From contig MHDQ01000150.1 in assembly GCA_001803565.1 (NCBI GenBank), positions 9,849 to 22,891 on the forward strand: a stretch of 13,043 bases of DNA, written 5' to 3'. Positions 1-13,043 of this stretch are shown here, in pieces. Numbering within the stretch: position 1 is the stretch's first letter; the number at the start of each line of letters is the position of its first letter. This stretch comes from Nitrospinae bacterium RIFCSPLOWO2_12_FULL_45_22 (GTDB taxonomy: Bacteria > 2-12-FULL-45-22). The position numbers were made by a program, and so were the translations under genes. The notes beneath the pieces were generated by a model, which was not told the DNA's origin, did not search any database, and saw only the letters and a list, made by a program, of their open reading frames with translations.

Positions 1-32
1 GGTAGCCGACGCAGATTACACTATTTAAGGAA

Positions 33-56
33 TGCCTGTCTGCCAAGGCACAGGCA
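33..56. repeat. Short GC-rich hairpin
   Basis: TGCCTGT (33-39) and ACAGGCA (50-56) are perfect 7-bp arms around a 10-nt loop, which itself contains TGCC-AA-GGCA. It begins exactly where the match to the second repeat copy ends, so it may be the first piece of inserted DNA. Confidence 0.6.
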
Positions 57-58
57 GG

Positions 59-109
59 GTAGTGGCAGAGCTTGCTCTGCAAATAAAGTCGAGCAAGCTC
101 GACCACTAC
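59..109. repeat. Double palindrome enclosed by an outer stem
   Basis: GTAGTGG (59-65) pairs with CCACTAC (103-109) and encloses two perfect hairpins: GCAGAGC-TT-GCTCTGC (65-80) and GTCGAGC-AA-GCTCGAC (88-103). The layout could fold into a three-way junction on either strand. The core GC(A/T)(A/T)GC resembles the hairpins between ilvN and ilvB at 8285-8348, suggesting one dispersed hairpin family. Confidence 0.7.
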
Positions 110-138
110 AAATTTATTACATAGCCTTTATGACAAAG

Positions 139-285
139 GTAAGCGTTCAGCCGTCAGCAATCAGTGGTCAGCAAGACAAATAAAAACAACAGCTTATATA
201 GAAACCCTCAGCTTGGAAATTGTAGAACATCTCTCGTATCACCTTGTTTTTGCTGAAAGCTGACGGCTAATAGCTGAACGCTTAC
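139..285. mobile_element. 147-bp MITE-like element with 36-nt inverted ends and 8-bp flanking direct repeats
   Basis: The left end (139-174) and the reverse complement of the right end (250-285) are both 36 nt and align without gaps. The outer 13 bases, GTAAGCGTTCAGC, are identical. Inside, both arms are built of 7-bp units: CGTCAGC, AATCAGT, GGTCAGC on the left and TATTAGC, CGTCAGC, TTTCAGC on the right. TGACAAAG occurs immediately outside both ends (131-138 and 286-293), as expected of a target-site duplication. The 75-bp interior has no coding capacity, so the element would have to be mobilised by an enzyme encoded elsewhere. Mobility is inferred from structure only. Confidence 0.6.
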
Positions 286-399
286 TGACAAAGAATAGCC
301 ACACCCATTTTCTATTCTGAATTCTGACTCCTGTATTCTAGTTATCTGTGTGGATCTGCGGAAATCTGCGTCCAATAAATGGGGGTTTGCCTAAAAGCA

Positions 400-432
400 A
401 TAACGCCAGGGCAAAGCGATCCCTGGCGTTAT
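400..432 (-). terminator. Intrinsic terminator after lptD
   Basis: ATAACGCCAGGG (400-411) and CCCTGGCGTTAT (421-432) form a perfect 12-bp stem with a 9-nt loop, 25 bp past the lptD stop. On the minus strand the stem is followed by TTGCTTTTAG, a modest T-rich tract. The position and stem strength fit the 3' end of the whole minus-strand gene run. The T-tract is short, so termination may be partial. Confidence 0.7.
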
Positions 433-457
433 ATTTCTTCAAAATGGAATCCACCAA

Positions 458-2623
458 TTACTTATTATAGAGAGAAAAGATGGGCTTTCCTTTAATATCT
501 TTGCCGAAAGAGCCTAAGCCATACAGACTTACTAAGAAGCCAAACTCATACTCGCTCTTCTGGCGATAATAATCGGTTTCTGTGGTGCGGTCAATAAAAT
601 TCAGGCTAATATTAAAGCAAGAACCTTGATAGCCAAAGGCATAATTCTTTTCTAAGAATAGACCCTTAGCGGCATCATAACGGGTGGAGAACTGGAGGGC
701 CCAATTCTTAATAAAGTCTATACCAAAGCCTACATTATAAAACTCCTCAGTCTCATCTAAATCACTACTTACTGAAGGCCGGGCATATCTCCTCTCTAAG
801 TCAATAAATCCCCATTTTCTATGCGTAAGTCTTATCTTCTGTCCACTCCTGGTAAAGGCATTTTCATAAATATCATAAGCCCCATCCAGATTCAGCTCCA
901 GGAAAGGAAAGATATGGGTATCCAGATCATAAAAAGTCTCTGAGAAAGGATATTGCTTATCGAGACTATATTCCCTTATATCGTAACCCTGGCCTAGCTC
1001 AAACCTGACGATTTCTCTCGTCGAATCCTTTTCTTTAGCCAGGAAGCGGTTAATCAGAGAAAACTGGACATGGTTCTTGGGTTCCAGATCATCTATAGAA
1101 TCGAATTTTATAATCTTTGCCCGATCTTCTTCTTTGGTCCATTCTGGTGAATAGTTATATGTTATGCGCGGTTCAATAAGGTGTCTCAGGGCAGACATCT
1201 TATCCCAGTTAACTTTATATGTCCGGTAGGTCTTTGGCCCCTGGAAATCTAGCTCAAATAAAGGCATCTGGCGGAAGAGGGTATCACCACTACCGCCTTG
1301 TAAAGGGTTATAATAGGTCTCGCGTAAACCGAGGGAAGGAGTGACACTAAACCAGGGAACCATGGTAAAGGGCATAGATACCTGAGGGAATAGATCAAAG
1401 CGGGCTACTTGCTCTTTCCGACCGTCTTCTTCCCGATAAAAATCTACCGCTGAGGACTGAAGTTGGAAAAAGAAGGGGCTATCCTTTATCTGCTGATTAT
1501 GGAAGGTATAGATGAGCTCAGGTAATTTAGCAAAGACTTGCTGAGGGGCATCACCAGACTCATTATCTTCCTTCAACCCTTCCAAATATTCTGAATATAA
1601 TTGTAGAGTGCTGTTTTCCCAACTCTTGGTCACATCAAGAAAGGAATCCGAGTAACGTCTGGTACGGGTCTCTACCTCCTTTTCAAATTCTTTATCACTA
1701 TTGTTTTCACTAAGCATATCCAGCTTCAATCGGCCCTTGATATCATTCTTGAACTTCTGGTTATGCTCAAAATCTATCTTGTAAAAATTCCCACCAGTTT
1801 TCTGGTCTCGTAAGAAGGAGCCAGCAAAAGTCCCGGAGGTATTCTTATCCCAGAAATATCGGTATTCCAACTTGGGCCTCACACCCCGCTGGCCCAGGCT
1901 ATCGAAACCAAAGGTAGCGTCAGTATTACCTTTGATCGCCCAAAAAAAGCTGTTCCCCAGGGTAAAACCATCTTCATTACCAAAGCCTATCTTCGGGGTA
2001 AGAAAGCCACTGTTACGTCTCTTCTGGGACATAGGGACATAGAACAGGGGGGTATAGAAGAGTGGGATATTTTTTATACGGAAAGATGGGTTTTTCAGAA
2101 AGGCATACTTATCTGGACTCACCTCGGCTTCACCCATATGGAAGCTCCAGGGTGGTGATTTACCCTGGCAGGAACTAATAGTCCCTTCTTTAACCTTATA
2201 TTTGTTTTCTCCTAACCATTCCAACTGCTGGGCCGCCACATAGTAAAGGGCGTTGACAAAGCCATTACCGTTATAAATAGTCCCCTGCTTATTAAAGATA
2301 TTGAAATTGGCCTTCTCACAAAAAATTTGGTTATCTTTATCCTTTATTTCTACATTACCAGAGGCAAAACTGTCACCGGTCAGGGTGTTTACCTTCAGAT
2401 AATCTGCTTGTATCCGCATATCTTTATAGCGGATATCAACAAAACCCTGGGCAATAACAGTATTGGTCTTCCCCTGGTTTTCTATCTGGTCGGCATAGAT
2501 ACTCATAGGCGGGGGCGCAGCTTTAGAGGATGGTGATGCCAGAGTTTTTAATGGGTAGAAGATCAAAAGGGATATTAATAATAACCAATAAAGACTTCTT
2601 AACCCCCCCTTCTTCCATAGCAT
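458..2623 (-). CDS. lptD: LPS-assembly outer-membrane protein LptD
   Basis: This protein is the outer-membrane beta-barrel that receives lipopolysaccharide from the LptA bridge and, with LptE, places it in the outer leaflet. Its 721 aa fit the family. A signal peptide covers residues 1-29 (Lys/Arg start, hydrophobic LYWLLLISLLIFYPL, probable cut after LKTLA). An OstA/LptA-like domain spans roughly 40-145, with repeated 'ADQIENQ...ADYLKVN' strand patterns, and a long barrel with many aromatic, alternating strands runs to the end. Only three cysteines are seen (C102, C152, C669). C152 in SSCQGKSPPW matches the conserved inter-domain cysteine, so a single long-range C152-C669 disulfide is plausible, against two in E. 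coli. The start is ATG with AGGAGA seven bases upstream. It is last in the run, 24 bp after folC. Confidence 0.93.
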   Translation of the reverse strand: MLWKKGGLRSLYWLLLISLLIFYPLKTLASPSSKAAPPPMSIYADQIENQGKTNTVIAQGFVDIRYKDMRIQADYLKVNTLTGDSFASGNVEIKDKDNQIFCEKANFNIFNKQGTIYNGNGFVNALYYVAAQQLEWLGENKYKVKEGTISSCQGKSPPWSFHMGEAEVSPDKYAFLKNPSFRIKNIPLFYTPLFYVPMSQKRRNSGFLTPKIGFGNEDGFTLGNSFFWAIKGNTDATFGFDSLGQRGVRPKLEYRYFWDKNTSGTFAGSFLRDQKTGGNFYKIDFEHNQKFKNDIKGRLKLDMLSENNSDKEFEKEVETRTRRYSDSFLDVTKSWENSTLQLYSEYLEGLKEDNESGDAPQQVFAKLPELIYTFHNQQIKDSPFFFQLQSSAVDFYREEDGRKEQVARFDLFPQVSMPFTMVPWFSVTPSLGLRETYYNPLQGGSGDTLFRQMPLFELDFQGPKTYRTYKVNWDKMSALRHLIEPRITYNYSPEWTKEEDRAKIIKFDSIDDLEPKNHVQFSLINRFLAKEKDSTREIVRFELGQGYDIREYSLDKQYPFSETFYDLDTHIFPFLELNLDGAYDIYENAFTRSGQKIRLTHRKWGFIDLERRYARPSVSSDLDETEEFYNVGFGIDFIKNWALQFSTRYDAAKGLFLEKNYAFGYQGSCFNISLNFIDRTTETDYYRQKSEYEFGFLVSLYGLGSFGKDIKGKPIFSLYNK

Positions 2624-2647
2624 AATTATTTCTCCTCTAATATAAAT

Positions 2648-3976
2648 TTATGAAGCCTTTCTAAATATATCTAACTTTTGATCCAACCCCAAGCTCTTTA
2701 TAGCCTTACGCGCTTCTCCTACAGTATAAAGAGAACCTGTTATACAGATAATATCTTCCGCTCCTGCTAAGCCCTTGGCATAGGCTATAGCCTTGGGAAC
2801 GTCTTCTATTATTATCGGCTTCTGCCCCCTCTTTATTACTTCTTTTGCTACTAAATCTACCCCCGCCCCTCGGGGGGTCGAGGGACATGTTATTATTATA
2901 ACAGCATTATTATTAAAAAGGGAAGAAAAATTTTTTATCATTATATCATATTTTTTATCTTGTAAAACCCCAAAAATGATAAAAAGTTTTTTATAGGAAA
3001 AAATTTTTTTTAAGGCTGCTACTAAAGCCTTAATGGCCTGGGGGTTATGGGCTCCATCTAAGAGTATTACTGGATCATGGGCCATTATTTCTATCCGGCC
3101 TTCCCAGCAAACCTCTTCCAGACCCCTTCTTATATCATCCGGCTGGACAATAAACCCTGCATCATTAAGCTGGTGGCAAACCTCTACCGCCGTTGCAGCA
3201 TTAATTATTTGATGCTCCCCTAACAGGGATAACCGTAGGCCATCATATCTTATCCCAGGGGAAAAAAAATTGAACCGCTGCCCATCCTTACTACTCTCTA
3301 ATTTTCTTACCCAGAAATCTCTTCCATAAAACCATAATTTGGCCTTCAATGCCTCACACTGCTTCTCCATAAAGAGCCTGACCTTAGGTTGCAGCCGCGA
3401 GCATACGGCCCTCCCCTCTCGCTTGATAATGCCAGCCTTTTCCTGGGCAATGGCTAGCAAGGTATTGCCCAGATAGTTAGTATGGTCTAAACCAATACTG
3501 GTTATAACAGATACCAATGGCCTCACTACATTAGTAGCATCTAATCTACCACCCATGCCTGTCTCCAATATAGCTATATCCACTTTCTCCTGGGCAAAAT
3601 AGCTCAAGGCCATGACGGTAATAAATTCAAAATAAGTTAAAGATGCTTCCAGTTGCCGGACTCTCCGGATGAGTTGGCCGGCCATATTCTTTGGTATAGG
3701 TATCCTATTGATCTTTACCCTTTCCCGGAAATTATCCAGGTGGGGAGAAGTATACAGACCTACCTTGTAACCACTGGCCTCTAAAATAGAACTTATTATA
3801 GTAGCGGTAGAGCCCTTACCATTGGTGCCGGCTATAAGAATAGTGTTTAACTGGCAGTGGGGATTCCCTAGATAAGAAAGGCTCTCTTCCATCTGTTGAA
3901 GGCCCAGTCTGATACCTGCACCGGTTAAAGAATCAAGATAATTAAATTCTTCCTTATAGTCCATATAGTCCATCAT
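2648..3976 (-). CDS. folC: Bifunctional folylpolyglutamate synthase / dihydrofolate synthase
   Basis: This Mur-ligase-family enzyme adds glutamate to dihydropteroate and to folates using ATP in the cytoplasm. Residue numbers are for the 442-aa form. The P-loop GTNGKGST is near residue 50, TSPHLDNFRERVKIN follows, ETGMGGRLDATNVV lies near 138-151, the QEKAGIIK lysine region is near 178-185, and the DGAHN motif starts at about 307. The frame is open upstream to a TTG at 4018, but those 14 codons are repeat DNA (3985-4002) unlike FolC. I therefore start at the first ATG (3976); ATG codons at 3973 and 3964 are alternatives, and none has a clear SD. The stretch around 2930-3015 is very AT-rich with long A and T runs (Phe/Lys/Ile codons) but stays in frame. 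AccD-FolC adjacency is common. Confidence 0.93.
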   Translation of the reverse strand: MMDYMDYKEEFNYLDSLTGAGIRLGLQQMEESLSYLGNPHCQLNTILIAGTNGKGSTATIISSILEASGYKVGLYTSPHLDNFRERVKINRIPIPKNMAGQLIRRVRQLEASLTYFEFITVMALSYFAQEKVDIAILETGMGGRLDATNVVRPLVSVITSIGLDHTNYLGNTLLAIAQEKAGIIKREGRAVCSRLQPKVRLFMEKQCEALKAKLWFYGRDFWVRKLESSKDGQRFNFFSPGIRYDGLRLSLLGEHQIINAATAVEVCHQLNDAGFIVQPDDIRRGLEEVCWEGRIEIMAHDPVILLDGAHNPQAIKALVAALKKIFSYKKLFIIFGVLQDKKYDIMIKNFSSLFNNNAVIIITCPSTPRGAGVDLVAKEVIKRGQKPIIIEDVPKAIAYAKGLAGAEDIICITGSLYTVGEARKAIKSLGLDQKLDIFRKAS

Positions 3977-3984
3977 CCCGTAAA

Positions 3985-4108
3985 ACCGCAAAGACGCAGA
4001 GGACCCCGAGACCCTCAATAGGTCATTACGTTATTAGGTTATTAAGTAATATCGCAATAACGTAGTCACCCAATGACCCATTATCCCCTTTGCGTTCCCT
4101 GCGCTTCT
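3985..4108. repeat. Nested inverted short-repeat element in the accD-folC gap
   Basis: The outer arms are CGCAAAG (3987-3993, continuing ACGCAGAGG) and CTTTGCG (4088-4094, continuing into TTCCCTGCGC). The inner arms are GGTCATT (4021-4027) with AATGACC (4072-4078), then ACGTTATT (4028-4035) with AATAACGT (4056-4063), separated by an 8-nt bulge. It fills most of the 149-bp spacer and supplies the DNA just upstream of the folC start. No flanking direct repeat is evident. The 7-bp unit GGTCATT also appears in the accD-pssA spacer. Confidence 0.6.
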
Positions 4109-4125
4109 GTAGTGAATAATCTTGG

Positions 4126-4974
4126 TTAATTAAACCCTAGATGATTAATGATATTCCCTATGGTTTGCTTTAATTCTCTCCTTGCCACCACCATATCAAT
4201 CATACCATGTTTAAGCAGAAACTCCGCCCGTTGGAAGCCCTCAGGTAATTTCTGTTTAATAGTCTGTTCTATCACCCTGGGCCCCGCAAATCCTATCAAG
4301 GCCCCTGGCTCAGCTATAATAATATCTCCTAACATAGCCAGGCTAGCAGAGACACCACCTGTCGTAGGATCGGTCAGGATAGAGATATAGGGAAGCCCTT
4401 GCTTAAAGAATTTTGCCAGGCATGAGCTTACTTTAGCCATCTGCATTAAAGACAAGATACCTTCCTGCATCCGGGCCCCACCCGAGCAAGAAACTATGGC
4501 CAGTGGAATGTGTTGGTCTATAGCCCGCTCAATAGAACGGCTTATCTTCTCACCCACCACTGAACCCATGCTACCCCCCATGAAATTAAACTCAAAGATA
4601 CACAATTGAATAAGGGTATTATTCAATCGGCCTGAACCACAAATCACTGCCTCCCTTATCCCCAGAGCCTTATTGGCCTGATTTACCCTCTCTGGATAGC
4701 GCTTAGAATCCTTAAATTTTAAGGGATCAGCCGTTGTTAGAAGGGAGTCAACCTCTTCAAAGGTGCTGGGGTCGGTTAATAAATCTATCCTTTCCTGGGC
4801 ACTAATCCTAAAATGGTAATTGCATTTGGGGCAAACTTTAGAATTTTTCTCTACTTCCTTCTTATAAACTATTGCCTTACATGCATTACACTTTATCCAT
4901 AATCCCTCAGGAATATCTAGTTTATTATTATCGCCAATCTTTTTTAGCTCGGTTTTGTTTCTGGCAAACCACAT
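4126..4974 (-). CDS. accD: Acetyl-CoA carboxylase carboxyltransferase subunit beta
   Basis: AccD is the zinc-bearing beta subunit of the AccA/AccD carboxyltransferase that moves the carboxyl group from biotin to acetyl-CoA, the committed step of fatty-acid synthesis. At 282 aa it is family length without the C-terminal tail of E. coli AccD. A four-cysteine zinc ribbon is present (C29, C32, C48, C51: CNAC and CPKC). The carboxyltransferase core shows FNFMGGSMGSVVGEK, SCSGGARMQEG, GGVSASLAMLGD and IGFAGPRVIEQT. AccA is not in this window. The ATG start matches family N-termini (IPEGLW follows). The bases upstream, reading ACAAATAACCAAT, hold no SD because a heptad array ends about two bases from the start codon. 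Confidence 0.94.
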   Translation of the reverse strand: MWFARNKTELKKIGDNNKLDIPEGLWIKCNACKAIVYKKEVEKNSKVCPKCNYHFRISAQERIDLLTDPSTFEEVDSLLTTADPLKFKDSKRYPERVNQANKALGIREAVICGSGRLNNTLIQLCIFEFNFMGGSMGSVVGEKISRSIERAIDQHIPLAIVSCSGGARMQEGILSLMQMAKVSSCLAKFFKQGLPYISILTDPTTGGVSASLAMLGDIIIAEPGALIGFAGPRVIEQTIKQKLPEGFQRAEFLLKHGMIDMVVARRELKQTIGNIINHLGFN

Positions 4975-4976
4975 AT

Positions 4977-5087
4977 TGGTTATTTGTCATTTGTCATTTG
5001 TCATTTGTCATTTGTCATTTGTCATTTGTCATTAGTCATTTAACCTACCTTTCCTCCCAATGACCAATGACCAGTGACTAATGACCA
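4977..5087. repeat. Asymmetric convergent heptad arrays filling the pssA-accD gap
   Basis: The left arm starts TGGTTATT, then has seven perfect tandem copies of TGTCATT (4985-5033) and one AGTCATT (5034-5040). The right arm, read as reverse complement from 5087, is TGGTCATT, AGTCACT, GGTCATT, GGTCATT. The arms face each other and share unit length and outer sequence, but one has about twice as many units, as expected from slippage expansion. The element occupies almost the whole 116-bp space between the pssA stop and the accD start. On the accD transcript the units read AATGACA, giving an ATG every 7 nt, most opening a five-codon frame that ends in TGA. Confidence 0.8.
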
Positions 5088-5090
5088 GGT

Positions 5091-5849
5091 TTATGCCTGC
5101 TCCTCAGCTACCTCGGCCCCAGCCTTAGGCTTTCTCTTATAGGGAGCGATCAAGGCCCTTATTGGCCCTGATACTACGTAAGAAAACAAGAGGAGGAAAA
5201 TCGAGATCTGGGGGAGAGAGCCGACCACTAAGATAGCTAATACCATTACTACTAAGAGCCCAAAGGGCTTTCTCTTTCTTAGATTAAGGTGTTTAAAACT
5301 AGGGTATCTGATGTTGCTCACCATTAAAAAGGCCAATAAGTATACCGGTATCAAAAAGAGCAACCCCCTGATCCGTTCTTCAGATAAAGACAAATCTTTA
5401 CTCAAAATGACCAGTATGGCCAGGAAACCCGCTGCCGCCGGTATAGGCAAGCCCACAAAATCTTTGCTCTTTATCCCGGAAAACTGCACATTGAACCGCG
5501 CCAGCCTCAAGGCGCCACAGATAACAAAAACAAAAGCCGCCAATATACCGATACGCCCCAAAGGCTTAAGACTCCACGAATAGATCAGAACCCCAGGGGC
5601 TACTCCAAAGGTAATAAAATCGGCTAAAGAATCATACTCTACCCCAAAGTCGGTACAGGCATTAGTAAACCTTGCTACCCTACCATCCAACCCATCAATA
5701 ATAATGGCTATCAAAACAGCTAAAGAAGCCGCGTAGTAACGCTCATAATAGACACTGATCAGGGAATAAAAACCACAAAATATGTTGGCCGAAGTAAGCA
5801 AGCTAGGTATTATATAAATCCCTCTGCGTTTAATCTCCTTTTTCTTCAA
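5091..5849 (-). CDS. pssA: CDP-diacylglycerol--serine O-phosphatidyltransferase
   Basis: This integral membrane enzyme makes phosphatidylserine from CDP-diacylglycerol and serine, the substrate of the neighbouring Psd. The CDP-alcohol phosphotransferase signature is complete: D52-x2-D55-G56-x2-A59-R60-x8-G69-x3-D73-x3-D77. At 252 aa, with several hydrophobic segments (about 20-50, 85-110, 130-150, 165-185, 200-230), it matches the Bacillus-type membrane PssA rather than the PLD-like E. coli enzyme. The N-terminal PSLLTSANIFCGFYS is typical. The start is TTG, with GGGGAG (5858-5863) eight bases upstream. Psd lies upstream across a 214-bp repeat-filled spacer, although the two genes are usually close. 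Confidence 0.92.
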   Translation of the reverse strand: MKKKEIKRRGIYIIPSLLTSANIFCGFYSLISVYYERYYAASLAVLIAIIIDGLDGRVARFTNACTDFGVEYDSLADFITFGVAPGVLIYSWSLKPLGRIGILAAFVFVICGALRLARFNVQFSGIKSKDFVGLPIPAAAGFLAILVILSKDLSLSEERIRGLLFLIPVYLLAFLMVSNIRYPSFKHLNLRKRKPFGLLVVMVLAILVVGSLPQISIFLLLFSYVVSGPIRALIAPYKRKPKAGAEVAEEQA

Positions 5850-5880
5850 GCTCTTTACTCCCCATTTTAAATTATATTTC

Positions 5881-6050
5881 GGAGACAGATTTCCGCAGAT
5901 CCACGCAGATAAGTAGAATACAGGAGTCAGAAGCCGGAATTCAGAATAGAAAATAAGTTGTTCCTTTCATGCTGACTTCTGAATTTTAACTCCTGTATTC
6001 CTTAAATAGTGTAATCTACGTCGGGTACCCACGGAGTGGGTGGTGCGTCC
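5881..6050. repeat. 170-bp dispersed repeat, copy 2, with inverted heptad arms
   Basis: The ends are GGAGACA (5881-5887) and TGCGTCC (6044-6050), imperfect inverted termini. The left end carries 10-bp-periodic CGCAGAT repeats. Two convergent heptad arms follow: 5916-5948 (GAATACA, GGAGTCA, GAAGCCG, GAATTCA, GAATA) and, reverse-complemented from 6000 to 5971, GAATACA, GGAGTTA, AAATTCA, GAAGTCA. Near the right end is a perfect hairpin ACCCAC-GGA-GTGGGT (6027-6041). The spacer matches the two ends of the region 1-373 in opposite orientation. Relative to that copy it carries exactly one additional 7-bp unit between the ATTCTGAATTC and TGACTCCTG blocks (minus-strand reading). No flanking direct repeat is seen. 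Confidence 0.75.
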
Positions 6051-6063
6051 AAAAAGGAAATTC

Positions 6064-6705
6064 CTATGCTATGAATTTGGCTATAATAGTTTCTCCTGCC
6101 CTGACTTTATCACCCACTTTGATATATGGCTCACACACCACAGGAAATAGCAGTTCCACCCTGGAACCAAACTTGATCAGACCTAATTTCTGGCCGCATG
6201 CTAAATAATCGCCTGGTTTAACCCAGCATACTATCCGCCGGGCAATAAAACCAGCTATTTGCCTTATTACTAATGGACCGAAATCGCCAGACAATAAGAT
6301 GCTATTCTGTTCATTAAGTTTGGCTGCCTTCCTCCATAAAGCCGGTAAAAACTTACCTGGTCTATACTCAGTGTTAACTACCCGGCCAGAATAGGGTGAG
6401 CGATTGATATGGACATCGAAGAGGGATAGGAATATACTGACGCAATAGACCTCTTTTTTGAAGAACGATTCATCATATACTTTTTCCAAACCAATCACCC
6501 GTCCATCGGCTGGAGAAATAATAGCCTGGGGTATAGCAGGATGGGTTCTTTCCGGGTCCCGGAAAAAATATATTGTTATCAGTGCCAGAAAGAAAAAGGG
6601 AAGGTAAAGGGGTACAAGTTTCAGTAGATAGAAAAATAGAGCCAGGCCAGAAAAGGTCAGGATAATGGGTAACCCTTCTGGGACGATAGGTAATCTTTTT
6701 ATCAT
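6064..6705 (-). CDS. psd: Phosphatidylserine decarboxylase proenzyme (short type)
   Basis: Psd decarboxylates phosphatidylserine to phosphatidylethanolamine at the inner membrane. It is made as a proenzyme that cuts itself at a Gly-Ser bond, leaving a pyruvoyl group on the new alpha chain. Here FGSRVEL near residues 179-185 supplies the cleavage site (Ser about 181). [27 protein letters not shown] and YRPGKF are family signatures. Two hydrophobic stretches at about residues 12-48 anchor it. The 213-aa length is that of the short bacterial/archaeal class. I choose the ATG at 6705, whose ATGA overlaps the ilvC stop (translational coupling, AGG four bases upstream), over an in-frame TTG at 6717. 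PssA lies downstream. Confidence 0.93.
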
Positions 6706-7691
6706 TTGCCTATCCAACTCATCATGGCCCTTAGCTTTTTGCCCACTTCTTCTATCAGATGTCCTTCGTCCTTCCGGGTCAAGGCATTAAAGCTAGGGCG
6801 ATTGGCGCGATTTTCTAATACCCATTCCTTAGCAAACTCCCCTGACTGGATCTCTGCCAGTATCCTCTTCATCTCCTGCCGTGTTTGAACTGTTATAATC
6901 CGGGGTCCGCGGGTCAAGTCGCCATACTGGGCAGTATCGCTAATAGAGGAGCGCATCCTGGTTATCCCACCCTCATACATGAGGTCAACAATGAGCTTCA
7001 ATTCGTGCATACATTCAAAATAGGCGATCTCTGGCTGGTAGCCAGCTTCTACCAACGTCTCAAAGGCGGCCTTTACCAGGGCCGTTATCCCACCACAGAG
7101 TACCACCTGTTCGCCAAATAGATCGGTCTCGGTTTCCTCGCTGAAAGTAGTCTCAATGACCCCAGCCCGGGCCCCCCCAATGCCCTTGGCATAGGCAAGG
7201 GCTATATCCCTGGCCTTGCCAGAAGCATCCTGCTGGATAGCAAATAGGCACGGTACCCCTCGACCTTCTTCATACAGGCGCCGTACCAATCGCCCCGGCC
7301 CTTTCGGTGCTACCATAAATACATCTACCTCTGGGGGAGGGACTATCTGACCAAAATGGATGTTGAAACCATGGGCAAAGTCTAAGGCCTTCCCCTTTTT
7401 TAGAACGGGCGATATATTCTGAGCATAGGCCTCTGCTTGCCTCTCGTCCGGGATAAGGAGGGCGATTACGTCCCCGGAAGAGGCCGCTTCTTTTACCGTC
7501 TGAACCTCCATACCATCTTGCACTGCCTGATCCCAGGTCGCATCTTTCAAAGTACCTATTATTACCTTGAGACCACTATCTTTCAGGTTAAGGGCCTGGG
7601 CCCGACCCTGGTTCCCGTAGCCAATAACAGCAATCTTCTTGTCTTTAAGATAAGCTAAATCAGCATCCTGCTCATAATAGATTTTTACCAT
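6702..7691 (-). CDS. ilvC: Ketol-acid reductoisomerase, class I
   Basis: IlvC rearranges and reduces acetolactate or acetohydroxybutyrate, using Mg2+ and a nicotinamide cofactor, in valine/isoleucine synthesis. The 329-aa length is class I. The Rossmann motif GYGNQG is at residues 24-29, H107 sits in [12 protein letters not shown]130 in MVAPKGPG, and the metal ligands are D190, E194, E226 and E230, with S251 in [10 protein letters not shown]. The cofactor-selecting loop after strand beta-2 reads G46-TLKDAT-W53. It is six residues long, has an aspartate and lacks the usual arginine and first phosphate-binding serine, so NADPH preference should not be assumed. GNQGRA replaces the common GSQGHA. 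The ATG start has GGGAG six bases upstream. It is 20 bp after ilvN and overlaps psd. Confidence 0.95.
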
Positions 7692-7711
7692 ACCTAGCTC
7701 CCTTTACATTT

Positions 7712-8233
7712 TTAGAGTTTCAAGACTTTATTGCCACGCCCTAAGGCTACCTTACCTGTCCGGGCTATCTCAATAATACCAATGGGTTTTAAGAGATTTA
7801 TCAGGGCCCCCAGCTTCTCTTCATCACCCGTTATTTCTAAGGTATAAGTAGTAGCGCTGACATCCACAATCTTGCCCCGAAAGATATCTACAATACGTAA
7901 GACCTCGGCCCGGTTTTCCGGCTCAGATTCTACTTTAATTAAGGCCATTTCTCGCTCTACATAATCCTCTTCGCATAGATCAACCACTTTGATTACATCT
8001 ATCAATTTCCGCAGTTGTTTGATGACCTGCTCTATGATCTGGCCATTGTCCCGGGTAACAATAGTCATGCGGGAGATGCTAGGGTCAACGGTTGGGGCTA
8101 CAGTGAGGCTATCTATATTAAAACCGCGACCACTAAAAAGCCCTGCTATCCGCGTAAGGGCGCCAAACCTATTCTCTACCAGAAGGGATATGGTATGCCG
8201 CGATTTTGCATTTTCAAAGATTTTATCCGCCAT
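7712..8233 (-). CDS. ilvN: Acetolactate synthase small (regulatory) subunit
   Basis: This regulatory subunit binds the catalytic IlvB and confers valine feedback inhibition. An N-terminal ACT domain runs over about residues 12-85, with [20 protein letters not shown] and [14 protein letters not shown] second ACT-like C-terminal domain contains [23 protein letters not shown]. The length (173 aa) is normal for the long IlvN/IlvH form. An in-frame TTG lies one codon upstream at 8236, but ATG at 8233 is better placed after AGGTGG, eight bases away. It is separated from ilvB by an unusual 127-bp spacer holding three perfect hairpins. In most genomes the two subunit genes abut or overlap, so expression balance may be altered here. 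Confidence 0.95.
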
Positions 8234-8258
8234 CAATCAAGCCACCTAACGTAGTTGC

Positions 8259-8348
8259 ACCGTCTTACGGTACCGATAGATCTAAGCATCGCAAGGCGAT
8301 GCTGCTACTTCATTGACAATATCCTGTAGCCGCAGGGCCTTGCCCTGC
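8259..8348. repeat. Three perfect hairpins between ilvB and ilvN
   Basis: ACCGT-CTT-ACGGT (8259-8271), AGCATCGC-AAG-GCGATGCT (8285-8303) and GCAGGGC-CTT-GCCCTGC (8332-8348) all have perfect arms and a three-base loop, CTT or its complement AAG. None is followed by a clear T-tract on the minus strand, so these are not standard terminators. They could pause RNA polymerase, protect mRNA ends, or be short dispersed repeats like those at 65-103. They lie within one transcript region between the two subunits of one enzyme. Confidence 0.75.
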
Positions 8349-8360
8349 TAAAAGTGATCC

Positions 8361-10046
8361 TTAAGCCAAGAGCATCCTACGGATAGAGGCACCGACTGGA
8401 ACCATAGGATAAACATTCTCTTCCCTATCTATTTCAAAGTCAATAACTACGGGCTTAGGGATGGCCAGGGCTTGTTCTATAATGGGCCTGACCTCCTCGG
8501 GCTCACTGGCCCGCAACCCTACTGCACCATAGGCCTCCGCAATCTTGACAAAATCAGGATTAGAATTTAGACAAGTATAGGAATAGCGCCGATTATAAAA
8601 AAGTTGCTGCCATTGCCTGACCATACCCAGGTATTTATTATTCAGGATAGCTACTTTAACTGGAAGCCGGTACTGGACAGCGGTAGCCAATTCTTGAATG
8701 TTCATCTGAAAGCTTCCATCACCAGCAATATCAATGACTATCTTATCAGGAAAGGCAGCCTGGGCGCCGATAGCCGCCGGGAAGCCATAGCCCATGGTCC
8801 CTAAACCACCGGAAGATAATAGGGTACGTGGTTTAGTAAACTTGTAGAATTGAGCCGTCCACATCTGATTCTGTCCTACCTCAGTAGTTATTATGGCCTC
8901 TCCCTTAGTAGCTTCATTAATCTGTTCAATAACATATTGGGGCTTTATCTTTTTTCCCTGGTTATTATAGGTTAGGGGATGGTTTTTCCGCCATTCCTCT
9001 ATCTCCCGGAGCCATTCTTCATGATCTTTCAACCAGTCTTTCTCTTCTTTTTTCAGTAAGGGGTTCATCTTGGACAATATCTTCTTGGCATCCCCTACTA
9101 CTGGATAATCTCCCCTAACATTCTTCCCTATAGAGGTAGGATCAATATCTATATGGACGATTTTTGCGTGTGGGGCAAACTCTTCCAGGTTCCCGGTTAC
9201 CCGATCATCAAACCGGCTCCCTATAGCTATAAGCAAGTCCGCCTCACTGAGGGCCATATTAGCTGTATAAATGCCATGCATGCCCGGCATACCCAGGAAT
9301 AAAGCGTGGGTAGCAGGAAAACCGCCTAAACCCATCAGGGTAGTGGTTACAGGTATCTGGCCAATTTCTGCTAACTGACGTAACTCCTCAGAGGCCCCAG
9401 AGATAATAATTCCCCCACCAGCTAGTATTACTGGTCTCTTTGCCCGGGCAATGATCTTAACTACCTTGGCTATCTGCCCGGCATGCCCTTCGTAAGTGGG
9501 GTTGTATCCCCGGATATAGGCCCTTTCTGGATATTTAAAGTCGCCCTTAGCCGCCAGGACATCTTTGGGTAGATCAACTAAAACTGGCCCGGGCCGGCCC
9601 GTCGTAGCAATAAAGAATGCCTCTTTTATCGTCCGGGCCAGGTCTGCTATATCCTTCACCAGATAATTATGTTTAGTACAGGGTAAGGTTATACCCACTA
9701 TATCCGCTTCCTGGAAGGCATCATTCCCAATGATCCTGGTAGGTACCTGACCAGTAAAGACTACAATTGGCACCGAGTCCATATAAGCAGTGGCAATCCC
9801 GGTAACGGTATTGGTAGCGCCCGGACCAGAAGTTACTAAACACACCCCCGGTTTACCACTTGCCCGGGCATACCCATCAGCGGCATGTACCGCCCCTTGC
9901 TCATGTCGGCTTAGGATATGGCGTAAAGGGGCGTCAAATAAAACATTATAAACATCCAATACCACACCACCAGGGAAGCCAAAGATGGTATCTATTTTTT
10001 CTCGTAGCAAACATTCGACAAATATTTCAGCGCCACTCTTCTTCAT
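8361..10046 (-). CDS. ilvB: Acetolactate synthase large (catalytic) subunit
   Basis: This thiamine-diphosphate and FAD enzyme condenses pyruvate with pyruvate or 2-oxobutyrate, the first common step to valine, leucine and isoleucine. At 561 aa it is normal length. The catalytic glutamate E49 is in [15 protein letters not shown]. The FAD-binding middle domain includes [14 protein letters not shown] and [12 protein letters not shown] near 251-286. The TPP/Mg motif runs from G442-D-G to LNN at 470. MVRQWQ (W479) is the region shared with anabolic, FAD-dependent family members and separates it from catabolic AlsS. The ATG start has only a weak SD (AGACGG). It begins 18 bp after the ilvD stop. Confidence 0.96.
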
Positions 10047-10064
10047 AAACCGTCTATCTTTTTC

Positions 10065-11720
10065 TCACCCCCGCAGGATAGCACCAGTACTAGCCGAGGT
10101 AACTTGCTTAGCATAGCGGGCCAGATAACCCTTTTGTATCTTTATTGGTGGAGGGGTCCATGCCTTTTGCCTCGCTTCTAGTTCTCCATCGGCCAGAAAA
10201 TGCTGGATCACCTTTCTCTCTAAATCTATCTCTATCTCATCCCCATTATGTAATAAGGCTATTGGCCCACCTTCCATAGCCTCTGGGGAAATATGGCCTA
10301 CACAGGGACCCCTGGTCCCCCCGGAAAAACGCCCATCGGTTATTAAGGCTACCGTCTCACCTAAACCCATACCCATCAAAGCGGCCGTAGGGCCCAACAT
10401 CTCCCGCATCCCTGGACCCCCTTTAGGCCCTTCATACCTTACTACCACCACTTGCCCCGGCTTTATCTCACCCGCCATGATAGCTTTCATAGTATCTTCT
10501 TCCGACTCAAAGACCCTTGCTTTACCCTGAAACAGCCGGGCTCCTTCTGCTACAGCCGATTGTTTGATAACGGCCCCCGCGGGGGCCAGATTCCCGCGTA
10601 GGATAGCTATCCCGCCCTGGGGATGGAAAGGCTCTTCCAGGGGTCTTATTACTCCCGGGTCCAAGACCTGACTACTCTGGGCAATGGTATTTAAGGGAGT
10701 ACCAGATATGGTAAGAGAATCTTTTAGGTGGTCCTTCAGGCGGTTCAGGACTGCCGGGACCCCACCGGCATATTCCAGGTCCTCCATAAAATATTCTCCC
10801 CCAGGTCGTAGATTCACCAGGTGGGGGGTAGTAGTGCTAATCTCATCAAATAGCTCCAGGTCGAGTCCTACCTTTGCTTCATGGGCAATAGCCATCAGGT
10901 GCAAGATAGTATTAGTAGAGCCACCTAAAGCCATATCCAGGCGGATAGCATTTTCAAAGGCTGCTAAGGTCAATATTTTACGGGGTGTAAAATCCTCTTT
11001 TATCAACCTTACTATCTGTTCTCCACTCTCAAAGGCTATCCTCTTCTTCTTGGCGGATACGGCCAGAGAAGTGCCACAGCCAACTAACGACATTCCTAAT
11101 GCCTCGGTCAAGCACGACATTGTATTGGCCGTATATAGCCCCTGGCAGGAGCCGGGTCCAGGACAAGCCTCTAGCTCCAACTGACTAAGCTCCTCCTGTG
11201 AAACTTCTCCTAATCGGTATCTGCCTACCGCTTCAAAGGTATCCCGTACCAGCGAGAGACGCTTCTGACCTATCCTGCCCGCAAGCATGGGACCCGCTGT
11301 CAGGACGATAGCCGGAATATCCAGCCGGGCAGATGCCATCAGCATCCCCGGGGTTATCTTGTCACAATTGGTTATTAGCACCAGGCCATCGAGGGCATGG
11401 GCCTCGGTTATCACCTCGATCATATCTGCTATCAATTCCCGGGATGGCAGGGAATAGTGCATACCGTGATGGCCCATAGCTATACCATCACAGATGCCCG
11501 GGACAGAAAAGATAAAGGGGTAGCCACCACCACTATGAACCCCTTTCTCTACAAAGCGTTCTAGCTCCCGCATGCTTGAGTGACCGGGTATAATATCGGT
11601 AAAACTACTTACAACACCGATAAAAGGCTTACTCAGGCTAGCGCGGGTCATACCGTCAGCATACAATAGCGCCCGGTGCGGTGCCCGCTCTATCCCCTCC
11701 TTAATGATATTACTGCGCAA
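10065..11720 (-). CDS. ilvD: Dihydroxy-acid dehydratase
   Basis: IlvD is an iron-sulfur enzyme that dehydrates dihydroxy-isovalerate and dihydroxy-methylvalerate to the 2-oxo acids before transamination. The 551-aa length fits. Seen are [15 protein letters not shown] at the N-terminus, [13 protein letters not shown] (C77), [13 protein letters not shown] (C119, with the adjacent DK) and [16 protein letters not shown] (C186, C192). In the last motif the middle cysteine of the common CPxCGSC form is proline, while the early VPGH form typical of E. coli-type enzymes is kept. The reading frame extends three codons to a GTG at 11729, but that codon overlaps the SD. TTG at 11720 gives the family-standard start and sits eight bases after GGAG. 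It is the first ilv gene, preceded by a 253-bp repeat-rich leader. Confidence 0.95.
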
Positions 11721-11728
11721 AAAAACCA

Positions 11729-11735
11729 CTCCTTT
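11729..11735 (-). promoter_or_regulatory. Ribosome binding site deciding the ilvD TTG start
   Basis: The minus strand reads AAAGGAG here, with eight bases between GGAG and the TTG at 11718-11720. The upstream GTG (11727-11729) overlaps this SD and so cannot use it. Confidence 0.65.
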
Positions 11736-11782
11736 AACTTGACATTGTCACATTTACTGAGAGCAACCCGGCTTAACAAACT

Positions 11783-11838
11783 CTAAATCCCAAGCGCTAA
11801 ACCCTAAACAATATCAAAATTCTAAATCCAAATCTCAG
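11783..11838. repeat. Degenerate heptad array in the ilvD leader
   Basis: Successive 7-bp units read CTAAATC, CCAAGCG, CTAAACC, CTAAACA, then a looser ATATCAA, AATTCTA, AATCCAA, ATCTCAG. CTAAATCC recurs at 11822-11829, out of phase with the first units. Unlike the others, this array has no facing inverted partner. It lies between the ilvD start and the hairpin at 11845-11909. Confidence 0.45.
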
Positions 11839-11844
11839 TGTTTA

Positions 11845-11909
11845 TCGTGTCGGTGTCCGTGTTCCGTGACCGTGATTTTTACGGACACGTTCCACCGACA
11901 CGGACACGA
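11845..11909. repeat. Long imperfect inverted repeat with matched unit spacing, upstream of ilvD
   Basis: The arms are 29 nt (11845-11873 and 11881-11909) around a 7-nt loop. Read toward the loop, both start TCG and continue as TG-headed units of 6, 6, 7 and 6 bases: TGTCGG, TGTCCG, TGTTCCG, TGACCG on the left and TGTCCG, TGTCGG, TGGAACG, TGTCCG on the right. In the ilvD leader RNA it would form a strong stem. It has no obvious terminator T-tract and no flanking direct repeat. Confidence 0.7.
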
Positions 11910-11939
11910 CAAATTGAAAGATGCCTTAACTTGGGTGGA

Positions 11940-11968
11940 AAATTAACATATAAACTACTGTCAGTCAA
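11940..11968 (-). promoter_or_regulatory. Possible sigma-70-type promoter for ilvD
   Basis: The minus strand shows TTGACT (11968-11963), a 17-bp spacer, then TAATTT (11945-11940) preceded by TGT, an extended -10 pattern. The -10 match is poor. It starts just after the stop of the small gene upstream and would produce a leader containing both repeat structures before ilvD. Weak evidence. Confidence 0.25.
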
Positions 11969-11973
11969 TATCT

Positions 11974-12213
11974 CTAATCCGGCTGTACTTTTTCGGCTTT
12001 ATATTTTCTTAGTATTTCTGCCATCCTATCTTTACCGAGCAGCTTTCGTTTTTGAAGAGTTTTACGCTCCATCTCCTCCTCATGGGTCAAGTAGCGTAAT
12101 TTATTTAATTTTTCTAGCTTCTTCTCCAAATATTGATGTTCTTCCAGGAGATGGCAAAACTCCTTATCCTCTCTCTTAAGACTTTCTATCAGATCATCTT
12201 CCTCCTCCCACAT
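11974..12213 (-). CDS. Small charged helical protein, DUF465/YdcH-like
   Basis: This is a 79-aa cytoplasmic protein that is almost wholly charged helix. The core, from LKREDKEFCHLLEEHQYL to the RKLLGKDRMAEILRKY segment (about residues 12-71), matches my memory of the DUF465 (YdcH) pattern: 'EF..L..EH..L...I..L.....LT..EE.E...LKK.KL..KD.I..IL'. Two helices flank the RYLTHEEE turn near residues 40-47, suggesting a helical hairpin. The family has no established function. The start is ATG with a very strong AGGAGGGGGG upstream. It lies between tsaB and ilvD with repeat-filled spacers on both sides, so its link to either is not obvious. Confidence 0.82.
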   Translation of the reverse strand: MWEEEDDLIESLKREDKEFCHLLEEHQYLEKKLEKLNKLRYLTHEEEMERKTLQKRKLLGKDRMAEILRKYKAEKVQPD

Positions 12214-12302
12214 ATAAATACCCCCCTCCTAGCAAAAATATACGCAAAAGTATTCACGGCAAACATTGCCGCCCCCTCTTATCCCTAATCGCCAGGGGTA
12301 AA

Positions 12303-12365
12303 GAGTTAGGAGTTAGTGGTAAGGGAGAAGTTATAGGGTTTCTCCTCACTACTTACTCCTCACTC
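12303..12365. repeat. 63-bp convergent heptad element overlapping the tsaB 3' end
   Basis: Left arm units (12303-12330) are GAGTTAG, GAGTTAG, TGGTAAG, GGAGAAG. The right arm, reverse-complemented from 12365 to 12338, is GAGTGAG, GAGTAAG, TAGTGAG, GAGAAAC. The four units align one to one without gaps around a 7-nt loop. The right arm runs 17 bp into tsaB, encoding its last residues and its TAG stop. Confidence 0.8.
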
Positions 12366-13043
12366 CTTTTCTTCCCCATTTAATTTCCGCTTCTGAAGGT
12401 CTAATATAGTGGGGTTTTATGGAGCTAATATCTTCTAGCTGGCCCTCTTTTATCTTTTCAAAAGCCAGTAAGGCCACACAGGCCCCTACTGAAGCACTCC
12501 TCCCTTCAGCAACAAAAAAAGCCTCTTTCTTCAACCCCTGCAGGAAAAGGTCTCTATACAACCCTATGCCCTCTCCCCGGAATATTACTGGCTCGTGGAT
12601 ATATTGGCAAAGGTCCTTAGGCGGTAAAACCATTTCCGGAAAGGCCCTCTGCAGGGTAGGCCCATGTTTTTTATAAAAACCGGCATAAACCTCCCCTTTT
12701 CTTGCATCCAGTACAGGACAAATCAGGTAGGGGACAAAAGGTAGCCCAAAGGCCATAGCCTCTAGCGTAGAAACCCCCACCAATGGTTTACCAGTAGCAT
12801 AGGCCAACCCCTTGGCTACACTCAGCCCGATCCTTAAGCCCGTAAAAGAGCCTGGCCCAATAGTAACACCAAACCCACTAAGGTCTTCTAAGGTAAGGGA
12901 GGTTTCTTTTAAGGCCAGTTCAATAGAGGAGAGGAGCCTTTTGGAATGCGATATATCAGACTTTCTAGTATAATTGACTATTAACTGATCCTCATAAGTA
13001 ATAGCAACACTACCGGTTTTAGTGGCTGTATCAAAAGCCAGAA
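12349..13043 (-). CDS. tsaB: tRNA threonylcarbamoyladenosine biosynthesis protein TsaB (5' end cut)
   Basis: TsaB is the catalytically inactive ASKHA partner of TsaD in the complex that places the t6A37 modification on ANN-decoding tRNAs. The frame is open to the window edge, from a partial N-terminus LAFDTATKTGSVAI through the hallmark GPGSFTGLRIGLSVAKGLAY to the TAG at 12349. The visible 230 aa lack only about three to five N-terminal residues. The C-terminal part has the typical DARKGEVYAGFY and YIRPSEAEIKWG. A shorter reading starting at 12807 would use an internal TTG and lose the GPGSFTG motif, so it is wrong. The last residues (GVRSK) and stop are encoded by the heptad element at 12303-12365. 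Confidence 0.93.
   Translation of the reverse strand, partial: LAFDTATKTGSVAITYEDQLIVNYTRKSDISHSKRLLSSIELALKETSLTLEDLSGFGVTIGPGSFTGLRIGLSVAKGLAYATGKPLVGVSTLEAMAFGLPFVPYLICPVLDARKGEVYAGFYKKHGPTLQRAFPEMVLPPKDLCQYIHEPVIFRGEGIGLYRDLFLQGLKKEAFFVAEGRSASVGACVALLAFEKIKEGQLEDISSIKPHYIRPSEAEIKWGRKGVRSK

Follow-up and report, generated by a model that had tools for sequence, protein, structure and literature searches.

Facing tandem arrays in the spacers of a Nitrospinae genome are probably the arms of several MITE-like dispersed hairpin families

Six hairpin sites in an ordinary gene row

The stretch of DNA analysed here (13,043 nucleotides, hereafter the window; G000:C150:9849-22891) comes from a Nitrospinae bacterium whose genome assembly comprises 3.67 Mb in 321 contigs and is 85% complete. 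The window carries an ordinary row of minus-strand genes, encoding LptD, a Mur-ligase-family protein, an AccD-like carboxyl transferase, a CDP-alcohol phosphatidyltransferase, phosphatidylserine decarboxylase, ketol-acid reductoisomerase, the small and large subunits of acetolactate synthase, and dihydroxy-acid dehydratase. An inverted repeat is present in six of its seven spacers longer than 100 bp; the exception, spacer 8237–8360, has simple palindromes (GCATCGCAAGGCGATGC and GCAGGGCCTTGCCCTGC) in place of facing arrays. A sequence-only reading had named six sites at which two short tandem arrays face each other as inverted arms, mostly with 7-bp units (6–7 bp at 11845). We evaluated each site by a palindrome test against 200 dinucleotide shuffles, for which the p value has a floor of 0.005, and by a tandem-periodicity test at lags 6–8. 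Inverted arms were found at all six sites (p = 0.005, the test floor, at five, and p = 0.01 at 12303), but tandem periodicity was significant at four: 4021 (p = 0.002), 4977 (p = 0.002), 12303 (p = 0.006) and 11845 (p = 0.03). The single copies at 139–285 (p = 0.12) and 5916–6000 (p = 0.14) were not significantly periodic at lags 6–8, although 7-bp boxes are clear in the relatives of the former. The unit is 7 bp long at 4977 and 12303, and a period of about 6 bp fits best at 11845; site 4021, however, has an 8-bp unit (score 13 at lag 8 versus 2.5 at lag 7).

At 4021, the 8-bp hairpin of the GTTATTNG type consists of a left arm at 4017–4043 (plus strand; palindrome p = 0.005, lag-8 score 13, p = 0.002) and a right arm at 4056–4082 (minus strand; palindrome test), and is surrounded by outer array arms of the CGCAAAGAC/GCAGAG type (3986–4002, plus strand) and the CTTTGCG/CCCTGCG type (4086–4107, minus strand), whose bounds were set by eye. 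The 4977 spacer holds a (GTCATTT)n array of 8.6 copies at 4982–5041 (plus strand; TRF score 113) and a facing AATGACN array of 4.4 copies at 5057–5087 (minus strand; TRF score 48), within which the palindrome test placed the inverted arms at 4986–5012 and 5059–5085. The 5916 hairpin pairs a left arm of the TTCTGAN/ACTCCTG type (5916–5947, plus strand; palindrome p = 0.005), which recurs in L013 over 101 bp at 84% identity, with a right arm at 5969–6000 (minus strand; palindrome test). A dispersed TAAATCC-type element (11730–11837, plus strand), 97% identical over 104 bp to a copy in L016 and with further relatives in L006, L083 and L058, of which L083 and L006 have facing arms, ends just 5′ of the CGTGTC hairpin. 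The latter has a left arm of the CGTGTC/TGTCCG type with a unit of about 6 bp (11841–11873, plus strand; palindrome p = 0.005, lag-6 score 7.5, p = 0.03) and a right arm at 11881–11913 (minus strand; palindrome test). The last hairpin, of the GAGTTAG/GTAAGG type, has its left arm at 12300–12324 (plus strand; palindrome p = 0.01, lag-7 p = 0.006) and its right arm at 12344–12368 (minus strand; palindrome test); the right arm overlaps the 3′ end of an open reading frame (ORF; 12349–12807), of which it encodes the final residues (GVRSK) and the stop.

Other dispersed sequences lie among these sites. The repeat GACGCAGATTACACTATTTAAGG / CCTTAAATAGTGTAATCTACGTCGG occurs as inverted copies at 1–45 and 5996–6045, about 6 kb apart, and an array composite (TTCTGAN plus CTGCGGA) is likewise present in inverted orientation at 300–390 and 5880–5960. 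Positions 59–138 contain the GAGCAAGCTCGACCACTAC repeat, one of the two commonest 16-mers in the sampled genome (13 copies) and another dispersed element.

Site 139–285 is an IS66-type MITE

IS66 elements have 20–30-bp inverted ends beginning with GTAAGCG and 8-bp repeats (PMC11946415). Site 139–285 is an IS66-type MITE: it has GTAAGCG inverted ends and an 8-bp target-site duplication (TSD), and belongs to a set of several short copies that lack a transposase. Its left end (139–174, plus strand) consists of GTAAGCG followed by TCAGC boxes, one every 7 bp, and forms an inverted arm with the right end (250–285, minus strand), in which inverted TCAGC boxes lead to a terminal CGCTTAC. The element is bounded by exact direct repeats of TGACAAAG at 131–138 and 286–293, and is inserted within another dispersed repeat; six other loci have ACAAAGAATAGCCACA without the insert. 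The outer ends are GTAAGCGTTCAGC and its reverse complement. In the part of the source genome on which all own-genome figures rest (1.16 of 3.67 Mb, with ORFs from a simple caller), there are 23 GTAAGCGTTCAGC ends; full copies with duplications span 113–172 bp, and nine full GTAAGCG copies have exact 8-bp duplications of their own, AAAAATAC and TATTTTTT among them. A blind scan for terminal inverted repeats with TSDs yielded 15 candidates at a TSD of 8 bp versus 2 in the control, 11 of the 15 beginning with GTAA, and little or no excess at TSDs of 4–7, 9 or 10 bp. Complete elements with IS66-type ends and TCAGC boxes are also present in four genomes of unrelated families (G203, G207, G282 and G345), the copy in G345 with the TSD TCGCGCCG. 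In five copies (L238, L237, L068, L011 and L039), the interior carries a second hairpin, which consists of AGTRAGN heptamers.

The end structure is GTAAGCG followed by NTCAGCN heptads, in which TCAG is nearly constant and the flanking positions vary. When the left and right ends of one element are compared, they mismatch at the last heptad position in 46 of 48 cases and at the first in 30 of 48, but at the box bases T, C, A and G in only 1–6 of 48. Thus, what has been kept is the box, not base pairing between the arms. On this pattern, TCAGC boxes at a fixed pitch on both ends would most simply be a transposase recognition site.

No autonomous parent with GTAAGCG ends was found in the 85%-complete genome, in which a single ORF has IS66 domains. 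That ORF (L252, 1003–2706) encodes an HD domain after its IS66 transposase domains and is joined across a short N run with a repeated flank, so that the two may have been fused artefactually during assembly; as the ORF crosses the gap and lacks GTAAGCG ends, we rejected it as the parent.

Dispersed families and nesting

The sequence-only reading had described a shared architecture that lacked a shared sequence. Most of the window sites instead belong to dispersed families, each with a sequence of its own. The GTCATT hairpin has six copies that share the core AGTTTAAAGCCTTATAGCC and whose arms differ by heptamers, two 76-bp GAAC hairpins (L042 and L019) are clearly the same element, spacer 3973–4125 has relatives in L016, L084 and L012, and spacer 5860–6063 has one in L013. 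Hairpins also lie within other elements: 19 of 81 are located inside GTAA..TTAC ends, compared with 4.6% of intergenic stretches drawn at random. Outer inverted layers are likewise over-represented, significantly but to a limited extent (6 of 46 flank pairs score 10 or more, versus 1.2 expected), and the axis of the high-scoring layers is mostly within 7 bp of the inner axis. The remaining 62 of the 81 hairpins are not inside GTAA..TTAC ends, and no target duplication was detected at the other hairpins that reach the inverted-repeat cut-off, including the 4977 site; the other window sites fall below this cut-off, and their ends may be decayed. Transposase-driven mobility is therefore established for a part of the hairpins only.

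Facing arrays recur across the genome

Exact lag-7 runs number 22 in the sampled intergenic DNA (1.16 Mb sampled), whereas dinucleotide shuffles give 0.4 and coding DNA, after length scaling, 1.5; lags 8, 14, 16 and 21 are likewise raised. A reverse-complement array lies within 150 bp of 24 of 54 lag-7 arrays, versus 3 of 54 when flanks are swapped between arrays; for lag-8 arrays, the corresponding figures are 9 of 14 and 1 of 14. The suggestion that the architecture would recur well above shuffled intergenic DNA was thus borne out, and it also recurs in unrelated bacteria.

Placement in the spacers is biased. Facing arrays are rare in divergent spacers (2 of 38 versus 63 of 332, and 2 of 34 versus 41 of 207), and in tandem spacers the hairpin lies nearer the 3′ end of the upstream gene in 25 of 34 cases. 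A study of heptamer arrays in Xanthomonas describes the same upstream-gene-end bias (PMC4692102). This placement fits either an RNA role at 3′ ends or plain avoidance of promoters.

Unit families are replaced at retained Nostoc hairpins

Among the genomes compared, one is an order-mate of the source genome and all others shown share only its domain; the source genome is therefore not a relative of Nostoc. The pattern (GTCATTN)4 occurs mostly in cyanobacteria, and also in Bacteroidota, Verrucomicrobiota, Planctomycetes and Chloroflexota, and a three-unit GTCATTN-type pattern has 254 and 443 matches in two Nostoc genomes versus 0 in a control read backwards. A heptamer vocabulary shared across phyla beyond GTCATTN is weak, with 4 exact units in common versus 2.0 expected (p = 0.14); allowing one mismatch, 24 units are shared versus 18.3 expected (p = 0.014).

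We compared two orthologous Nostoc spacers, both selected for the presence of arrays in one genome; facing arrays are present there in nearly all genomes. At site 1 (30 genomes), facing arrays lie directly 3′ of the upstream gene. Their units are GTCATT/AATGAC in 24 genomes and of the AGTTAGG/AACTC type in 6, always in both arms together, and this distribution needs five changes of unit family on the gene tree, a number of independent changes that recombination between strains could lower. The AGTTAGG hairpin core, which was swapped in, has at most two copies per genome and was not found to have spread; it is therefore unlike a spreading element. At site 2 (20 genomes), there are at least six unit families, and one genome is nearly empty. 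One Nostoc genome (G087) contains a TA-flanked insertion with facing arrays that is absent from the other orthologues read. This insertion (L344) is about 110 bp long, with ends AGCTAATGCGCGT../..GCGTAACAGCT, a TA duplication and facing GTTGACT arrays, and looks like an IS630/mariner-type MITE.

Sister genomes capture further change. The Nostoc core GGGAAGYATAAATTCTCTTT, with arms of 9-bp units, has 34 copies in G061 and 1 in its sister G067 (93% identity); in the replacements, the two genomes share older outer arms, and the core and inner arms have been exchanged. The facing pair TAGGCAATAGGCAAT/ATTGCCTGTTGCC is small in G061 and has many units per arm in G067.

A rival explanation of the facing arrays is that they are selected RNA hairpins, acting as terminators or 3′-end stabilizers, in which arm complementarity is kept while the unit drifts or is swapped. 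Folding potential is indeed kept at both Nostoc sites despite their different units (mean z-score of the minimum free energy −4.3 at site 1, n = 30, and −3.5 at site 2, n = 20), the joint change of both arms at site 1 is what such selection would give, and the avoidance of divergent spacers, together with the position of the Xanthomonas arrays near upstream gene ends, is in keeping with it. However, L266 and L279 have almost no fold at site 1, several genomes are weak at site 2, the MITE arms ignore pairing at their spacer bases, and tolerance alone can account for the placement. We regard hairpin selection as a genuine contender, but an unlikely one as the general explanation.

Slippage is supported, arm-to-arm conversion is not

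The sequence-only reading had proposed slippage plus arm-to-arm conversion as a process that makes or maintains the hairpins, and had pointed to a unit register conserved between the arms. Slippage agrees with our data, in that copies differ by whole units. The register match is trivial, because both arms use one unit, and variant units do not follow a conserved order along the two. Copying of one arm into the other would be expected to leave the same order in both. When the order was shuffled in one arm as a test, the source genome gave no such match (median p = 0.75; 0 of 19 reached p = 0.1, a set in which power is low), and 2 of 34 at other loci reached p ≤ 0.05, whereas simulated inverted copies with 15% divergence gave 10 of 34. 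Given this power control, we reject conversion, and equally inverted duplication; the MITE ends, mismatched at the last heptad position in 46 of 48 cases, lend conversion no support either.

The same results bear on a purely mutational origin, in which template switching would create quasi-palindromes and slippage would extend their arms, with no mobile element involved. The whole-unit variation of the arms and the expansion of the TAGGCAATAGGCAAT/ATTGCCTGTTGCC pair from G061 to G067 speak for it, as does gradual unit change along a single array (L097, 3837–3920), where the heptamer drifts stepwise from GGTTAAT to GGTTACT, GGTCTTT and GCTCTTT. On the other hand, a mutational origin does not sit well with the lack of a common unit order (2 of 34, against the 10 of 34 expected at 15% divergence) or with common cores and target duplications at unlinked sites, and we judge it improbable.

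A third possibility, that every array serves a host protein as a binding site, recognized by its 7-bp period and unrelated to transposition, takes up the idea of period reading already put forward for the window. Protein reading at this pitch would suit the 139–285 family, whose fixed TCAGC boxes with variable spacer positions keep a constant 7-bp pitch across unrelated genomes. As a host-protein site, by contrast, it meets many different boxes, pitches of 6, 7, 8 and 9 bp, and arrays gained or lost between sister species, and is very improbable. An origin as REP/REPIN-type palindromes moved by RAYT transposases is scarcely credible, as the genome has five Y1 transposase-domain matches but none of the five adjoins such a hairpin, the elements read show no GTAG/GGAG-tagged consensus, and 139–285 has a DDE-type 8-bp duplication.

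Non-autonomous elements with box-run ends

We consider it probable, although by no means certain, that the facing arrays form the arms of several non-autonomous, MITE-like dispersed hairpin families that are varied by slippage, nested in one another and tolerated near gene 3′ ends. In such an element, two inverted runs of a 6–9-bp box would enclose a core or loop specific to the family, and the box repeats of each family may be what its mobilizing enzyme reads at both ends. Reading of the box at each end would explain why one box occurs in both arms, oppositely oriented, and yet the arms mismatch at spacer bases. Slippage would then alter the number of boxes, and the hairpins would persist near gene 3′ ends, where they may be harmless or useful as RNA hairpins, and be kept out of promoters. 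Successive insertion or replacement is our proposed reason for the different unit families found in one spacer across species.

A broader version, in which this design spans several phyla as non-autonomous elements whose box-run ends have a pitch of about 7 bp and which replace one another inside out, so that the hairpin outlives the sequence at its site, is one that we put forward only tentatively.

Comparison with known systems

Heptamer arrays in bacterial spacers have been described for decades, but to our knowledge no mechanism has gained acceptance. According to Elhai (2008), the small dispersed repeats (SDRs) of Nostoc punctiforme are reportedly short cores within tandem heptamer arrays, mobile and nested. 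The present hairpins are likened to them by description, not by sequence.

Several components of the design are already known, namely inverted heptamer pairs (PMC4692102), heptamer hairpins (PMC2670836), cross-phylum heptamers (PMC4679880) and an array-bearing MITE (PMC4596501), and the first two correct the earlier impression that the inverted form was undescribed. In the first study, GGGAATC arrays in Xanthomonas and GGGGA(C/T)T arrays in Nostoc form convergent inverted pairs (70 and 75 cases) and resemble those described here in being intergenic, near upstream gene ends and seldom between divergent genes; it is concerned with one G-rich unit family, examined for quadruplexes, and in the parts consulted reports no family swapping or mobile ends (PMC4692102). 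The TAACTGA repeats of Beggiatoaceae, Cyanobacteria and Bacteroidetes are also heptamer arrays found across distant phyla with no known route of transfer, but they are direct repeats before start codons, with one inverted case only (PMC4679880). BrickBuilt of Porphyromonas gingivalis is likewise a MITE containing a tandem repeat array, but its unit is 23 bp and its one internal array has no facing arms (PMC4596501).

In cyanobacteria, heptamer hairpins lie between the hupS and hupL genes and also upstream of hoxW, and the short tandemly repeated repetitive (STRR) heptamers, among which GTCATTN is abundant in Nostoc, share with our arrays 7-bp tandem spacer units that are able to fold (PMC2670836). 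Tandem 7-bp spacer units are present in the window, clearly at 4977 and 12303 (at 4021 the unit is 8 bp), and GTCATTN itself is common to cyanobacteria, but the host is not a heterocystous cyanobacterium. Unlike the STRRs, the arrays of this non-cyanobacterial genome comprise many unit families and lengths, common cores and mobile copies.

IS66-family MITEs share with 139–285 the terminal inverted repeats starting with GTAAGCG, the 8-bp direct repeats, the short length and the lack of a transposase (IS66 features from PMC11946415), whereas the ends of the 139–285 family are built of four or five tandem TCAGC heptads and its interior often hosts another short-repeat hairpin. A limited literature search, which is weak evidence of novelty, returned no box-array ends on an IS66-type MITE, no genome holding several unit families built to one design, and no inside-out replacement or unit-family swapping at a retained hairpin site. 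Against this background, 139–285 provides a concrete case in which a facing array makes up the end of an IS66-type MITE, its boxes spaced at a 7-bp pitch, and the orthologous Nostoc spacers provide a comparative test bed where a hairpin is retained although both its arms switch to another unit family. Taken together, the two make hairpin selection separable from recognition of sequence boxes, and both can be tested.
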